The notes under the pieces were generated by a model, which did not search any database, was not told where the DNA came from, and saw only the letters and a list, made by a program, of their open reading frames with translations. Below are positions 42,790-49,458 of a stretch of 64,000 bases of DNA, piece by piece. Each line of letters begins with the position of its first letter. The stretch's first letter is position 1. Source of the DNA: Natrialbaceae archaeon AArc-T1-2 (GTDB lineage Archaea; Halobacteriota; Halobacteria; Halobacteriales; Natrialbaceae); assembly GCF_030273315.1 (NCBI RefSeq), contig NZ_CP127174.1:1240001-1304000 (forward strand). The letters are read 5' to 3'. A program made the position numbers and the translations under genes.

Positions 42790-43596
42790 TTACTCGACGA
42801 CGTGTTCGGTGTCGTACGATCCGAGCCAGCGCACCCAGCCGTTCTCTGCGATCTCCTCGAGGTCGGCGACGGCGTCTTTCGTGCGCTGTTCGTACATTCC
42901 CGCCGCGACGTCGATGTGGAAGACGTAATCGCCCAGCCGCGCCCCGCTCGGACGGGACTCGACGCGGGTGAGGTTGATGTCCCGATCGGCGAAGGGCACG
43001 AGCAACTCGAGCAACAGACCGGGGTAGTTCGCGTTCGGGTAGACGACGAGCGAGCTCTTTCCGCCGCCTTCCGAACGTTCGGATTCGGGCGCGAGCGCGA
43101 AAAACCGCGTCGAGTTCGAGGACTGATCCTGGATGTCCTCTGCGAGCACCTGGAGACCCTCGCCAGCGTTCGCCGGGTGGCCGATGCCCGCTACGGCGGG
43201 ATCCTCCCGGGCCCGTTCGACGCCCTGGGCCGTGCTCGCGACGGCCTCGAGGCTCGCCTCGGGGTGTTCGTCCTCGAGGTAAGACCGGCACTGGGCAAGC
43301 GCCTGAGAGTGACTGGCGACGACCTCGAACCCGTCGTGTTGGGCAAGCAGGGCGTGGCGGATCGGCGTGACGATCTCGCGGACGACGGCGACATCGTACT
43401 CCGCGACGGCGTCTAAACTCTCGGTGACGCTCCCTTCGATGCTGTTTTCGACCGGAATGACGCCCCTGTCGTATTCGCCGCTTGCGACGGCGTCGACGAT
43501 CGCAGTCACGGACTGTCGGAAGTCGATCTCGTCGCCGATCGCACGCGCTGCGCGGTGAGAGTACGTCCCTTCGGGCCCGAGCGTAACGGCGGTCAT
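42790..43596 (-). CDS. pheA: Prephenate dehydratase
   Basis: Converts prephenate to phenylpyruvate in phenylalanine synthesis. 268 residues: an N-terminal PDT domain (1-180) with GPEGTYSHRAA, PVENSIEGSVTESLD (about 46-60) and NSTRFFAL (about 150-157, the TRF motif), then a C-terminal ACT domain (about 185-265) with SSLVVYPNANYPGLLLELL and RVESRPSG, the Phe-binding ESRP motif for feedback inhibition. A TATA-like GCGTTTTTCCC about 30 bases upstream suggests a leaderless message. No Phe-rich leader precedes it, unlike pheST 4 kb away. Confidence 0.95.
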   Translation of the reverse strand: MTAVTLGPEGTYSHRAARAIGDEIDFRQSVTAIVDAVASGEYDRGVIPVENSIEGSVTESLDAVAEYDVAVVREIVTPIRHALLAQHDGFEVVASHSQALAQCRSYLEDEHPEASLEAVASTAQGVERAREDPAVAGIGHPANAGEGLQVLAEDIQDQSSNSTRFFALAPESERSEGGGKSSLVVYPNANYPGLLLELLVPFADRDINLTRVESRPSGARLGDYVFHIDVAAGMYEQRTKDAVADLEEIAENGWVRWLGSYDTEHVVE

Positions 43597-44631: not shown

Positions 44632-46359
44632 TTACCGGAGCGCGTCGAGTTCGAACTCGAAGGCTGCGACGGGTACCTCGAGGTCGTGTTCGACGAGCAC
44701 CGTCGGGTGGAGTTCGCCGACGACGCCGACGTCCTCGCCGTCGATGACGACCGCGGCTGTGCGCCCGTCGATGAACGACGGATGGGTCGTCGGTGGCGTC
44801 TCGAGGGAGACGTCAAACGTCCGGGCGAGTGCCTGCAGGCGGGCCTTGGCGTCCTCGTAGGCGGCGTCGTGGCGCGCGAGGGCGGCCCCGACGTGGCGTC
44901 GTTCGGCGACGCCCGTGTTCGCCGTCTCGTCGATCCGTGCCGTGAAGCCGACCTCGGCGAGGTCCTGTGGGTACGCCCGATGGGTGTTGTTCTCGAGTAC
45001 CTGCACCAGCGAGGGCAGCGTCCAGGTCCGCAGGATGGTGTAGTCCTCGCTGTAGGGCTCTTTGATCGTCGCGGGCGAGCCCGCGCCGACGACCTCGTCA
45101 CCGGGAGCGAGGGCCATCCGCTCGAAGTTCGCTTCCTCGTTCGTCATGTGGAAGTTCAGCAGGTCCTCGAACCCGAGCCCGACCAGCCGGGTCCGGGTCG
45201 CCTCCTCTATGCGGCTACGGTCGTGACGGCCGCCGACGGTGCCGACGTCGGGGTAGGTCGGCTCGAGGTCGTTGAAACCGTACGCGCGCCCGAGGTCGTC
45301 GATGACGTCCAGCGGGTGGAGCACGTCGACGCGGTAGGGTGGGATCGTCACCTCATAGACCAGCTCGCCGTCGTCCTCGGCGCGCTCGGCGTCGAGGCCC
45401 GCCCGTTCGGCGAGGTCGAGCACCTCCTCGGGGTCGACGTCGATGCCGAGAATCGTCTCGATGCGATCGTGGGCGACGGTCTTCGTCTTCGTCGAGAAGT
45501 CGGGCCGGACGAGGTCGCGTTCGCCGTCGGGCGTGGACGGACCGTACTCGACGCGAACCTTCTCGATCGTCGCCCCGCGGGCCGACAGCGCGTAACAGAC
45601 GACGTTGAGCATCTTGTCGATCGTCCACTGGTCGGTGCCGGTCATCTCGACGAACAGCTCCCGGGAGTCCGTCGAGACCTCGGTCCGGCGGCCGTTGATC
45701 ACGGGCGGGAACGAGAACAGCCCGATGTCGTCGTAGATCGCCGGATACCGCTCGTAGTCGGCGACGAGGTCGGCGTAGGTCTCGCCGGTCGGGTGCTCCT
45801 CGAGCACCTCGGCGAGGGTCATCTCCGCGTCCGAATCCAGCGGGACGAACCGGTCGCCGTCGGGCTCGACGCCGACGTACCGGATCGTCGGCTCCCCTTC
45901 GGTGGCGGGGCTGCCTTTTAACATCGTCAGATCGTGAATCCCGATCGCGCCCTTCGCGCGCTTGCGGCCCATCGTCGCGTGGAGTTTCTCCTGGAGCTGG
46001 ATGAGCGAGTCCAGCGCGTCTTCGTCCAGGTCGACGCCACGGATCACCGCACCCGTGACGTAGGGTCGCTCGTCGGGAACGGTCTCGTCGACCTCGATCG
46101 TCCACTCCGGACTGTTCGTCGACGGGACAGTCACGCCGCGGTCGTCGCCGTACTGGTAGCGAAGCGAGCGGGCGACGCCCTCGACGGAGAGTCGGTCGAG
46201 CCGATCGGGCGCGAACTCGAGTTCGAACTCGCCCTCCTCGGTGCGGCCCTCGAACTCGAGGCCGAGCCCGAACAGGTCCTCGATCAGGTCGTCGTCGCTT
46301 TTCTCCTCGTGGCCGGTCAGGGTTCGCAGTTCGTCGGGGTCGACGTCGACGGTTGGCAT
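44632..46359 (-). CDS. pheT: Phenylalanine-tRNA ligase, beta subunit
   Basis: The editing and tRNA-binding subunit of the alpha2-beta2 synthetase. 575 residues, the archaeal/eukaryotic short type that lacks the bacterial C-terminal anticodon-binding domain. It starts MPTVDVDPDELRTLTGHEEK with a B1-like region, then a B3/B4 editing domain (about 100-260: SLIQLQEKLHATMGRKRAKGAIG, ELFVEMTGTDQWTIDKML), B5 (about 275-345) and a core that mimics the alpha catalytic domain (FEDLLNFHMTNEE). Its ATG overlaps the pheS stop by one base (TGATG), so the two are translationally coupled. Confidence 0.95.
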   Translation of the reverse strand: MPTVDVDPDELRTLTGHEEKSDDDLIEDLFGLGLEFEGRTEEGEFELEFAPDRLDRLSVEGVARSLRYQYGDDRGVTVPSTNSPEWTIEVDETVPDERPYVTGAVIRGVDLDEDALDSLIQLQEKLHATMGRKRAKGAIGIHDLTMLKGSPATEGEPTIRYVGVEPDGDRFVPLDSDAEMTLAEVLEEHPTGETYADLVADYERYPAIYDDIGLFSFPPVINGRRTEVSTDSRELFVEMTGTDQWTIDKMLNVVCYALSARGATIEKVRVEYGPSTPDGERDLVRPDFSTKTKTVAHDRIETILGIDVDPEEVLDLAERAGLDAERAEDDGELVYEVTIPPYRVDVLHPLDVIDDLGRAYGFNDLEPTYPDVGTVGGRHDRSRIEEATRTRLVGLGFEDLLNFHMTNEEANFERMALAPGDEVVGAGSPATIKEPYSEDYTILRTWTLPSLVQVLENNTHRAYPQDLAEVGFTARIDETANTGVAERRHVGAALARHDAAYEDAKARLQALARTFDVSLETPPTTHPSFIDGRTAAVVIDGEDVGVVGELHPTVLVEHDLEVPVAAFEFELDALR

Positions 46360-47870
46360 CAGTAGATCACCTCCGCGTTACGCAGGAACTCGAGATCGGC
46401 AAGCGTGCCGTGCAGGTCGCGGATGTCCTCCGCGCCGGTGACGAGCATCGCGAGTCGCTCTAAGGCCAGTCCCCAGGCCATCACGTCACAGTCGACGCCG
46501 AGCGGTTCCAGCATCTCCTCGCGGAAGATGCCGGAGTTGCCGATCTCGATCAGTTCACCGGTCGTCGGGTGAGTGCCGAACAGCTCGAAGCTCGGTTCCG
46601 TGTAGGGGTTGTAGTGAGGTTTGAACTGGATGTCCTCGATCCCGAACTGGGCGTAAAACTCCTCGAAGGTGCCCATGAGATCGCGAACGGAGAGGTCCTC
46701 GGCCATCACCCAGCCCTCGATCTGGAAGAACTCGAGCAGGTGGGTCGCGTCTAAGGTGTCGTTGCGGTAGGCCTTCTCGACGCTGAAGAAACGCGCGGGC
46801 GGATCGATCTCGCCGATCTCGGTGCCGGAGAGGTATCGCGTCGACAGCGAGGTCGTGTGTCCGCGAAGCGCGAGCGCACGGGCGAACTCCTCGTCCCACG
46901 GCGAGTGATAGCCCTCGCTGTCCTCGCCGACGCCCTCGCGGTGGGCGCGTTCGACCCGGGAGACGAGATCCTCGGGCAGTTCGTCGATGTGGCTCGGCTC
47001 CTCGAGTGCGAACCGGTCCCAGTGGGTCCGGGCGGGGTGATCCTGGGGCATGAACAGGCAGTCGTTGATCCAGAAGTCCGCGTCGGCGTGCGGGCCGTCC
47101 ATCTCCTGGAAGCCCATGCCGACCAGCACGTCCTTGACCCGTTCTGCGGTCTGACGCAGGACGTGGACCCGACCGCCCTCGAGGCGTTCGGCGTCGGCCT
47201 CGACGTTGTACTCGGCAAACTCGACGGCCTCCCACTCGCCGCTGGTCAGCAGTTCGGGCGTGACCTGGCCGACGGTCTCGGCGACCTCGACGCCGGCCAT
47301 CAGTTCCGTGACGCCCGTCTCGGTCAGGACGATCTCGCGGACCGTCCGTTCGTGGCGCTCGATCAGGTCGCGTCGCTCGAGGGTCTCGATCGTCTCCTCG
47401 TCGACGTCGCCGCCATCGCCGGCCTCGATCGCCTCGAGGGCGGCCGCCTCGGGGTCGGAACCGGGGTCGGCGTCGGGGTCGGCGGTGATCTCGCCGCCCT
47501 CGATCGTGCCGTACCCCTTCCGGGCGTAGTTCGACAGCGCGATGTCGACGCCCCCGCCCTCGAGTCCCGAGGCGCCGATGACACGGCCCATCTCGACGGG
47601 CTCGTCGTCGGCCCCGGCCTCGAGGGCGGCCTCGTAGAGGGAGATTTCGGGCAGGGCGGTCGCGACGTACTCGCTGCCCTCGTCGGTCGTCGTCGTCGTC
47701 TCGTCTGTGCGTTCCTCGACGGCGAGGAGGCCCCGGTCCTCGAGTTCGAACGCCGCCCCGGTGACGGTCTCGGGTGGGAGCTCCGTCGCCGCCGCGAGCT
47801 CGTCGACAGACTGTGCCTCGTCTGCGCTCGCGGCCTCTAAGACCGCGGCCTGTGCCTGTGGTAGTTGCAT
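46359..47870 (-). CDS. pheS: Phenylalanine-tRNA ligase, alpha subunit
   Basis: The catalytic subunit that charges tRNA-Phe. 503 residues. The N-terminal 200 hold winged-helix repeats (VLEAASADEAQSVDELAAATELPPETVTGAAFELEDRGLLAV) typical of archaeal PheS, which bind tRNA. The class II core follows: motif 1 near MDGPHADADFWINDCL, motif 2 PPARFFSVEKAYRNDTLDATHLLEFFQIEG (about 354-383), motif 3 GLALERLAML (about 469). The start ATG at 47870 follows GTAAGCGA, nearly the same as before leuS. About 150 bases of untranslated leader separate it from a Phe-rich small ORF that probably starts the same transcript. Confidence 0.95.
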   Translation of the reverse strand: MQLPQAQAAVLEAASADEAQSVDELAAATELPPETVTGAAFELEDRGLLAVEERTDETTTTTDEGSEYVATALPEISLYEAALEAGADDEPVEMGRVIGASGLEGGGVDIALSNYARKGYGTIEGGEITADPDADPGSDPEAAALEAIEAGDGGDVDEETIETLERRDLIERHERTVREIVLTETGVTELMAGVEVAETVGQVTPELLTSGEWEAVEFAEYNVEADAERLEGGRVHVLRQTAERVKDVLVGMGFQEMDGPHADADFWINDCLFMPQDHPARTHWDRFALEEPSHIDELPEDLVSRVERAHREGVGEDSEGYHSPWDEEFARALALRGHTTSLSTRYLSGTEIGEIDPPARFFSVEKAYRNDTLDATHLLEFFQIEGWVMAEDLSVRDLMGTFEEFYAQFGIEDIQFKPHYNPYTEPSFELFGTHPTTGELIEIGNSGIFREEMLEPLGVDCDVMAWGLALERLAMLVTGAEDIRDLHGTLADLEFLRNAEVIY

Positions 47871-47953
47871 TCGCTTACTTCGATCAGCGTGTGTCGGTCA
47901 GTTAGCGGTTCCGATACTGGGGGCGGCCGCCGGTCGTCTCGAGTCGTCGACGG

Positions 47954-47992
47954 CCGAGTGCCGGCGTGGACGGTTTCACGCCGGGGACTCGG
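47954..47992 (-). promoter_or_regulatory. Long hairpin in the pheST leader
   Basis: On the minus strand CCGAGT-CC-CCGGCGTG pairs with CACGCCGG-C-ACTCGG: 14 paired bases around an eight-base loop with a small internal bulge. It begins about 28 bases after the stop of the Phe-rich leader ORF. A competing pairing exists: GTGGAC (48013-48008) can pair with GTCCAC (47971-47966), which spans the loop and descending arm. No T-run follows, so this is not an intrinsic terminator of the bacterial kind. Confidence 0.6.
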
Positions 47993-48020
47993 TGTGAGGC
48001 CCCGACGGTCCACCGGCCGA

Positions 48021-48101
48021 TCACCGGGCGAAGAAGAAGCCGAACCCCGGACGCGTCGCTGGTTGGCGGGCGAGACACCGGCTGTGGGGTTCGGGTGCCA
48101 T
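48021..48101 (-). CDS. Candidate Phe-rich leader ORF (26 codons) of the pheST transcript
   Basis: An ATG at 48101 starts 26 codons ending RPGFGFFFAR and TGA. Four of the last seven residues are Phe, all TTC, and the residue before the cluster is Gly. It lies 150 bases upstream of pheS on the same strand. A TATA-like CTTTTG at 48131-48126 is placed to begin transcription at about 48102, so the ATG would be leaderless. The peptide has no homology I know. The position before phenylalanyl-tRNA synthetase genes suggests a leader peptide whose translation rate senses charged tRNA-Phe; this is inference. Confidence 0.55.
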   Translation of the reverse strand: MAPEPHSRCLARQPATRPGFGFFFAR

Positions 48102-48125
48102 ACGCGAACGGTTGTGACAGGCTCC

Positions 48126-48131
48126 CAAAAG
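48126..48131 (-). promoter_or_regulatory. TATA-like box for the pheST leader transcript
   Basis: CTTTTG on the minus strand in AACGCTTTTGGGAGCC, about 26 bases before the leader ORF ATG. No comparably good box lies between the leader ORF and pheS (47871-48020), so a transcript beginning at the leader is the simplest reading. Confidence 0.55.
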
Positions 48132-48249
48132 CGTTACGCGTTCGGTCGGACCGGGGTAGTACCGATGCCGCTCGAATCGGCGACACCTTATCAGAAACGA
48201 CGCCAGGACCGCCGAAAGGTTTGACTCCCTCCGTGTCGACGTCCGCTCG

Positions 48250-49458
48250 ATGGACGACATCGTCCTCGTCGACGGGGCACGGACGCCCCACGGAACCCTG
48301 CTGGGATCGCTCGCCGACGTCGAGGCGGTCGAACTCGGGCGAACCGCGATCGACGGCCTGCTCGAGCGGGTCGACGTCGGCCCGGAGGAAGTCGACTGGG
48401 TCTCGCTGGGCAACGCGATCCAGGCCGGGATCGGCCAGGTGCCGGGCCGACAGGTCGTGATCAAGTCCGAGTTGCCGAATTCGACCCGGACCACGACGAT
48501 CAACGAGGCCTCCGGCTCCGGCTTGCGGGCGATCACGCTCGCGGCGGATCGCATCGCGGCCGGGGAGGCGTCGATCGCGATCGCCGGCGGCTTCGAGTCG
48601 ATGACGAACGCGCCCTGGATCGTTCCCGACTACCGGACGGGGGTCCGCCACGGCGACGTCACCATGAAGGACTCGATGATCCTCGATTCGCTGTGGGACT
48701 GCAACCTCGATATCCACATGGGGGAGATCGCCGAACGACTGGTCGATCGGTTCGACGGCGAGGCGATCTCCGAGAGGAGCGACCGCTACGATCTCTCGCG
48801 GGAGGCCCAGGATCGCTACGCGCTCGAGAGCCACCGCCGGGCCGCCGAGGCGATCGAGGACGGCGTCTTCGACGACGAGGTCGTCCCCGTCCAGACGGGC
48901 GAGACCACCGTCGACCGCGACGAAGGACCACGCCCGGAGTCGACGATCGACGATCTCGACGCACTCTCCCCGGCGTTTCGCTCCGACGGCACCGTCACGC
49001 CCGGGAACGCCTCGAAGCTTTCCGACGGAGCCGGCGTCGTCTTGCTCGCCGACCGCGAGACTGCCGCAGACGCCGGCCTCGAGCCGACGGCCCGCCTCGT
49101 CGACTACGACCTCGTCTACCGGGAGCCCGACGAGTTCAACGAGGCCGTCGGCGACGTCGTCGAGGAGGTACTCGCCGCAAACGACCTCGAGCCCGCGGAC
49201 GTCGATACCTGCTGGATCAACGAGGCCTTCGCCGTCCAGTCGGTGTACGTCATGCAACGGCTCGGGATCGACCGCGAGGCGATGAACCCGCTCGGCGGGG
49301 CCGTCGCGTTCGGCCACCCGATCGGTGCGTCGGGCGGCATGTTAGCCGCGAGTCTTGCCTCCCAGCTTCGTCGCGAGAGCCTCGAGTACGGGCTCGTCGG
49401 AATGAGCATCGGCGGCGGCGGCGCGATCATGTCCCTGTGGGAAAACGTAACCGAGTAG
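48250..49458 (+). CDS. Thiolase-family acyltransferase lacking both catalytic cysteines
   Basis: A 402-residue thiolase-fold protein related to acetyl-CoA C-acetyltransferase. N-terminal ARTPHG, mid NEAF (about 322), and GHPIGASGG (about 355, catalytic His) are present. But the nucleophilic-Cys motif (usually N-x-x-C-G-S-G) reads NEASGSGLRA (about 85-94), with Ser for Cys, and the C-terminal CIGGG motif reads GMSIGGGGA (Ser for Cys). Some haloarchaeal ketothiolases use Ser-His-His, so activity may persist with serine. A role in acetoacetyl-CoA or fatty-acid metabolism is inferred. It has its own TATA-like AGGTTTGAC and is divergent from pheST. Confidence 0.82.
   Translation: MDDIVLVDGARTPHGTLLGSLADVEAVELGRTAIDGLLERVDVGPEEVDWVSLGNAIQAGIGQVPGRQVVIKSELPNSTRTTTINEASGSGLRAITLAADRIAAGEASIAIAGGFESMTNAPWIVPDYRTGVRHGDVTMKDSMILDSLWDCNLDIHMGEIAERLVDRFDGEAISERSDRYDLSREAQDRYALESHRRAAEAIEDGVFDDEVVPVQTGETTVDRDEGPRPESTIDDLDALSPAFRSDGTVTPGNASKLSDGAGVVLLADRETAADAGLEPTARLVDYDLVYREPDEFNEAVGDVVEEVLAANDLEPADVDTCWINEAFAVQSVYVMQRLGIDREAMNPLGGAVAFGHPIGASGGMLAASLASQLRRESLEYGLVGMSIGGGGAIMSLWENVTE

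Follow-up and report, generated by a model that had tools for sequence, protein, structure and literature searches.

In the attenuators of bacterial pheST (pheM), pheA (pheL) and the trp and his operons, the cognate gene is directly preceded by a short open reading frame (ORF) that carries codons for the amino acid concerned. Hairpins lie within and after this ORF, and only a short distance separates its control codons from the stop codon. The same general logic applies to T-box riboswitches and other amino-acid switches in Rfam, which act in cis on aminoacyl-tRNA synthetase genes in response to the charging state. In Escherichia coli, thrS is autoregulated through an operator that is bound by the synthetase itself. 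To our knowledge, sensing of amino-acid shortage by a stalled ribosome has so far been established only in bacteria. We found no relevant description of leader-peptide attenuation in archaea in the literature searched, a search with many subscription papers outside its scope, and a 2025 review on Haloferax mentions neither attenuation nor upstream ORFs (uORFs).

Here we describe a leader upstream of the phenylalanine--tRNA ligase genes pheST of Natrialbaceae archaeon AArc-T1-2, in a stretch of 64,000 nucleotides (the window), and its counterparts in other haloarchaea. The Phe leader shares the arrangement of bacterial attenuators described above. Unlike them, it belongs to an archaeal host and a leaderless transcript, often has a second promoter and uses different helices, and neither a U-tract terminator nor an antiterminator pairing was detected. 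It resembles ribosome-mediated attenuation but lacks these last two marks of the bacterial form, and nothing indicates common descent with the bacterial systems. It also differs from T-box riboswitches, as its sensing codons stand in a translated frame. The best explanation is a cis-acting leader-peptide sensor of an amino acid, that is, ribosome-mediated attenuation in an archaeon, and we regard this reading as quite probable.

The leader ORF and its conservation

A preliminary description of this DNA had proposed a phenylalanine attenuator of the bacterial type before pheS. The TATA-like box, the ATG, the 26 codons, the four TTC Phe codons and the pheS start that it named were all verified by reading the DNA (Table 1). 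Under a criterion of 15-50 codons and at least four of one residue among CFHIKLMNQWY in the last eight codons, the leader ORF is unique in the window. None of 2000 shuffles of the intergenic region yielded a comparable residue-rich short ORF under the same criterion. Downstream of pheT, the same strand encodes a prephenate dehydratase domain, which belongs to phenylalanine synthesis (43084-43584, minus strand), and no Phe leader was seen upstream of its gene.

Table 1. Features of the pheST leader region, in positions of the window
Feature	Positions	Strand	Basis or remark
P1, TATA-like box CTTTTG	48126..48131	-	DNA read; from its spacing, a leaderless transcript that begins with the ATG of the ORF is predicted
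Leader ORF, 26 codons, MAPEPHSRCLARQPATRPGFGFFFAR	48021..48101	-	DNA read, conservation and kept frame; ATG 48101, TGA 48023-48021; C-terminus RPGFGFFFAR; Phe at codons 20, 22, 23 and 24, TTC throughout
Hairpin A, 5' arm CCGAACCCC	48086..48094	-	Within ORF codons 3-6; covaries with the Gly-Phe codons
Hairpin A, 3' arm GGGGTTCGG	48040..48048	-	Immediately 5' of the FFF codons; covariation
Post-stop RNA element, model R1	47966..48020	-	Covariation; covariance model 54.3 bits
R1 outer helix	48019-48013/47973-47967	-	
R1 inner helix	48007-47998/47988-47979	-	
P2, promoter-like GGAACCGCTAAC	47901..47912	-	Conserved across relatives, ahead of pheS
pheS, phenylalanine--tRNA ligase alpha subunit	46359..47870	-	NCBIfam NF003210, 589.6 bits (cut-off 350); ATG 47870; stop overlaps the pheT start codon
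pheT, phenylalanine--tRNA ligase beta subunit	44632..46359	-	TIGR00471 pheT_arch, 435.3 bits

The regions upstream of pheS were read across the order Halobacteriales. The pheS gene was found in 121 genomes of the family, in 390 of the 392 genomes of the order and on 80 named contigs, as well as in 97 of the 99 genomes from another large family (f5), called Haloferacaceae here from its named members. No pheS gene was found on a plasmid in this survey. The leader ORF is present in 145 of 159 distinct upstream regions, and in about 165 of 185 once more Haloferacaceae are included (a few of these are weak). A Phe-rich ORF, which had been suggested as a check in relatives, was thus found at the matching position across the order. 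Its carriers belong to many families, and the named ones are species of Natronorubrum, Natrinema, Natrialba, Haloarcula, Halobacterium, Halorussus and Haladaptatus. The consensus of 24-30 codons reads M(A/P)(S/P)E(P/S)...GFGFFFA(R/A) up to the stop, and MASEPHSRCLARQPCVRPGFGFFFAG is a typical leader peptide. The Phe run mostly begins five codons ahead of the stop, with two codons after the last Phe, and the residues behind the run vary freely (AR, AA, A, LTA, SA, VAA).

With anchors scored irrespective of any ORF, the ATG and the Gly-Phe codons were separated by a multiple of three in 130 of 131 regions, and these in-frame distances took ten different values between 51 and 120 nt. A frame that is kept across so many spacings is strong evidence that the leader ORF is translated. 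A third-position codon bias, which had also been suggested as a check, is absent from the variable middle of the ORF, where GC3 is 0.67 compared to 0.90 in three neighbouring genes. As this part does not carry the haloarchaeal codon bias, it is probably not the peptide as such that matters. The Phe codons of the leaders show a mild enrichment of TTT (22%, versus 4 of 44 for three genes nearby). Altogether, the leader is almost certainly real. At one locus (L262 in genome G336), the post-stop element is present and the upstream ORF carries a single Phe codon; here, the leader may be decaying or the frame may differ.

RNA structure within and behind the leader

Comparison of the leaders shows strong covariation in two conserved RNA structures, a hairpin inside the ORF (hairpin A) and a two-helix element behind the stop codon. 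In hairpin A, the CCGAAYCC of codons 3-6 is base-paired to the GGRTTCGG of the Gly-Phe codons, and the 5' arm is located 8-16 nt from the 5' end of the transcript. The first base of codon 5 and the third base of the Gly codon occur as T-A 78 times, C-G 53 times, T-G 17 times and never as C-A (n=159); these sequences are related and the events not independent, and the stronger argument lies in several distinct compensated types, such as GACACC/GGTGTC, GGACCC/GGGTCC and GAGCCC/GGGCTC. In duplex energy, the margin of the real pairs over partner-swapped controls is about 14 standard deviations. The compensating changes alter Glu, Pro/Ser and the first Phe and leave the FFF run untouched. What is under selection is therefore the pairing of the RNA together with the Phe run, rather than the peptide as a whole.

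The same observations speak to the idea that the nascent chain arrests the ribosome in response to free phenylalanine, in the manner of TnaC. Such a peptide would be expected to show a conserved C-terminus near the stop codon, and a GFGFFFAR-like end is indeed conserved. However, hairpin A accounts for its Gly-Phe-Gly part, which varies whenever the hairpin does (GVG, GSG), and the free variation of the residues after the Phe run also argues against a specific arrest sequence. We consider this idea extremely improbable.

The post-stop element (model R1) has the form CGGYGGAN-stem-CGAAACCG and begins at the stop codon or a few bases from it. Its internal loop, UGGAC/UGAAA (consensus YGGAN/CGAAA), is strongly conserved. 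The structure, with 17 pairs, gave a covariation score of 0.477 in 45 sequences, compared to 0.154 ± 0.014 after shuffling, and none of 500 shuffles reached this value; slid versions of the structure scored 0.153 or less. Among the best 150 of 8400 candidates scored with the covariance model, the AArc-T1-2 genome holds a single copy (48020-47966, 54.3 bits). Matches were found in 170 of the 392 genomes of the order (E up to 0.1) in a search that used strict filters, which drop weak matches, and that included some genomes that had contributed to the 45 training sequences. Where the position of pheS is known, 113 of 115 matches lie 51-161 nt upstream of it on the same strand, and the remaining two are distant from pheS and look like chance matches. 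An Rfam scan of positions 47600-48600 gave no family match at E up to 1, and on this ground identity with a T-box riboswitch was rejected.

A different anatomy had been proposed in the preliminary description, with a 14-bp hairpin and a GTGGAC/GTCCAC pairing as its competitor. The 14-bp hairpin is present in the sequence and in the minimum-energy fold but is not conserved. The window is an outlier here, with the second strongest hairpin of 145, and relatives pair worse at this site than partner-swapped controls (-14.2 versus -15.0 ± 0.2). The competing pairing exists in the window and in only 3 of 146 relatives. Owing to this lack of conservation, we rejected the two pairings as the anatomy of an attenuator. 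The absence of a T-run, in contrast, is borne out, since T-runs from the leader stop to pheS do not exceed three in any of the 165 leaders. Likewise, an intrinsic terminator consisting of a G+C-rich hairpin and a U-run was found in none of the 165. Between the Gly-Phe control-codon region and the downstream RNA there is no excess pairing (-16.3 versus -16.2 ± 0.1 for swapped partners). The 3' end of the ORF and the outer helix (GCCCGG/CCGGGC in many Natrialbaceae) show a modest excess, in which relatedness is included (-10.4 versus -9.7 ± 0.15). No mutually exclusive antiterminator pairing was detected among the leaders compared. The unconserved pairings and the missing T-run leave a classical terminator with antiterminator unsupported. 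What holds of the attenuation idea is the conserved Phe-codon leader ORF before pheST, joined by a cognate case for tryptophan, while the hairpin and competitor do not.

A tryptophan leader before trpS

In genomes of a Haloferax-like genus (g70), the tryptophan--tRNA ligase gene is preceded by a leaderless-looking ORF of 23 codons, for example MVSTSHANCWRWHVSREVDSIAV. This Trp leader recurs in several families (L343-L362, L368, L370, L371, L373 and L374; in L373 about 166-94 nt before trpS), with WRW conserved and a conserved GGTGCTCACTCGCTTTCT stretch between the leader and trpS. It also occurs on plasmids of Haloferax mediterranei and Haloferax larsenii, at sites for which the gene table, which is incomplete, lists no gene. 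The Trp leader contains an internal hairpin, TCCACTTCC/GGAAGTGGA, for which we found the compensated pairs TCTACTTCC/GGAAGTAGA, TCCGCTTCC/GGAAGCGGA, GCCGCTCCC/GGGAGCGGA and TCCGCTCTC/GAGAGCGGA. Some variants end earlier or have a single Trp codon (L352, L361, L375 and L376); their stop codon is right behind the Trp codons and the downstream hairpin arm is retained. Such early-stop leaders suggest a requirement for the RNA arm and not for the tail of the peptide.

Both leaders very probably correspond to entries of a published dRNA-seq study of Haloferax volcanii (Babski et al. 2016, PMC4983044, Table 2). Row 12 of that table is a 23-aa uORF before the tryptophan--tRNA ligase gene HVO_A0127, and row 13 is a 26-aa uORF with a pI of 5.9 before pheS (HVO_2948). 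Several members of g70 encode a 26-aa Phe leader with a calculated pI of 5.94 and a mass of 2822-2850, compared to a listed mass of 2772 for the uORF. Given the matching length and pI and the similar mass, the g70 leader is very probably the same element. The study lists the uORFs as small proteins, and its text on them does not refer to cognate codons, RNA structure, conservation or regulation. Reading them as Phe and Trp leaders would explain two listed, previously uninterpreted uORFs.

No R1-like element was found at the Trp leaders, and this bears on the possibility that the RNA is an operator bound by phenylalanine--tRNA ligase itself, comparable to that of thrS, with the Phe codons being secondary. 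A structured element that is specific to pheS, has a fixed internal loop and occurs once per genome would suit such an operator. The kept frame, the Phe run beside the stop codon and a Trp-codon leader that is free of R1 are left unexplained by it, and we judge it highly improbable. In contrast, two synthetase genes that each carry matching control codons are hard to explain other than by amino-acid sensing via translation.

We propose that the two belong to a family of haloarchaeal synthetase leaders, with putative Phe/pheST and Trp/trpS members. Traits found in both are a leaderless cognate-codon ORF, an internal hairpin that covaries and whose 5' arm falls within codons 2-6, conserved RNA behind the ORF and the adjacent cognate gene. 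It seems rather probable that at least the Phe and Trp synthetase genes of haloarchaea are under leader-peptide control that evolved independently, in which the ribosome-sensing ORF and its hairpin govern termination or another step of RNA fate and no intrinsic terminator is used. Before the TyrRS/TrpRS and other class I synthetase genes (PF00133) of AArc-T1-2, no clear cognate-codon leader was found apart from a weak valine case. In this genome, the valine--tRNA ligase gene valS (G000:C1:908266-909957, minus strand) has an upstream, leaderless-looking ORF of 16 codons, MRRSVGSRLAVFVGAS (L307), with three Val codons (GTC, GTT and GTA) and a GGGGC/GCCCC repeat at the stop.

Promoters and proposed mode of control

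In 143 of 164 cases, the leader ATG follows the start of the T-rich P1 box at a distance of 29 nt, as would be expected if the transcript is leaderless. A promoter-like site closer to pheS (P2), overlooked in the preliminary description, has the conserved box GGAACCGYTAAC. It is found in most genomes that have the leader and is also kept in 20 genomes without it (19 above threshold and one variant below). As all 20 retain it, P2 is most likely the basal promoter of pheS, and pheST need not rely on P1 in most genomes. At other loci, the leader is present and P2 is absent or has lost its consensus (L104, L215, L258, L259, L264, L285, L293 and L294), implying that pheST is expressed there by read-through from P1. 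These genomes hint indirectly at a single P1 transcript spanning the leader and pheST, with which the start-site data of Haloferax volcanii agree.

These promoters allow for another reading, namely that the leader is an independent small gene, for a microprotein or an sRNA, which always ends after the post-stop element, and that pheST is transcribed from P2 alone. The post-stop hairpin could then be a hairpin terminator of the type known from Haloferax (PMC7237163), and a conserved, promoter-like P2 that is present also where the leader is missing would be expected. However, at H. volcanii pheS no additional transcription start site (TSS) is recorded and the sole listed TSS lies upstream of the 26-aa uORF (PMC4983044), a result that answers the earlier suggestion to consult a TSS map in a relative. 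An independent gene also does not account for the leader genomes without P2, for the distance of 51-161 nt within which R1 is held from pheS across the order, for a peptide that, with the exception of the Phe run, is unconserved where the RNA pairing makes no demand, or for the separate Trp leader of trpS. We therefore consider it very unlikely.

It is likely that pheST is controlled through translation of the Phe codons. In the leader-peptide model, the leaderless P1 transcript would begin at the ATG of the 26-codon ORF and be translated, with the three to four Phe codons just 5' of the stop acting as control codons. With ample Phe-tRNA, the ribosome would reach the stop, where its footprint would extend into the outer helix of the post-stop element. 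After its departure, hairpin A could close and hinder further leaderless initiation. The untranslated RNA upstream of pheS would then be lost by premature termination or decay, and pheST would rest on P2, where present. When Phe-tRNA is scarce, the ribosome would stall on the Phe codons and cover the 3' arm of hairpin A; coexistence of hairpin A with a ribosome on the control codons is unlikely. The post-stop element would be free to fold, and the P1 transcript would serve pheST. The Trp leader probably follows a similar logic, in which a hairpin held open by a stalled ribosome would favour synthetase expression and completion of the leader would reduce it. We infer the stall, the sign of the response, in which a stalled ribosome would raise pheST expression, and the terminating or decaying step.

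Termination without a U-tract might proceed by an FttA/aCPSF1-dependent or a hairpin-type route. Factor-dependent archaeal termination by FttA has been described, and a quality control of transcription-translation coupling by FttA has been hypothesised (PMC11616081), which makes FttA/aCPSF1 termination a putative effector step. Hairpin-type termination sites are known from Haloferax (PMC7237163), and Haloferax RNA polymerase co-purifies with ribosomal proteins and initiation factors (PMC8576121). Transcription termination and outputs at the level of RNA fate or translation appear about equally probable. A variant of leader-peptide control, whose probability thus overlaps with that of the preferred explanation, is that the position of the ribosome sets the fold, processing or half-life of a full-length P1 mRNA and acts on translation or stability instead of termination. 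Leaders without any U-tract are consistent with this variant, as are the location of hairpin A right at the 5' terminus, a place from which it would affect leaderless initiation, and the strongly conserved internal loop behind the stop, a potential site of binding or cleavage by a protein. The long and variable distance between element and pheS (51-161 nt) and the finding of no conserved pairing that hides the pheS start point the other way, and we hold this variant to be possible but somewhat doubtful.

If the leader-peptide model is true, the Phe and Trp leaders would form the first leader-peptide control system of synthetase genes in Archaea, and ribosome-mediated attenuation would operate with a eukaryote-like polymerase and no intrinsic terminators. 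Termination of the FttA type or RNA decay may then come under metabolite control. The Phe leader would be a compact natural test of whether archaeal transcription and translation are coupled tightly enough for regulation by ribosome position. It combines a conserved sensor with control codons and two helices that are defined, and Haloferax provides a relative amenable to genetics. Several lineages have lost the leader and kept P2 (L070, L074, L075, L106, L114, L174, L212 and L219) and represent natural deletions of the cassette.
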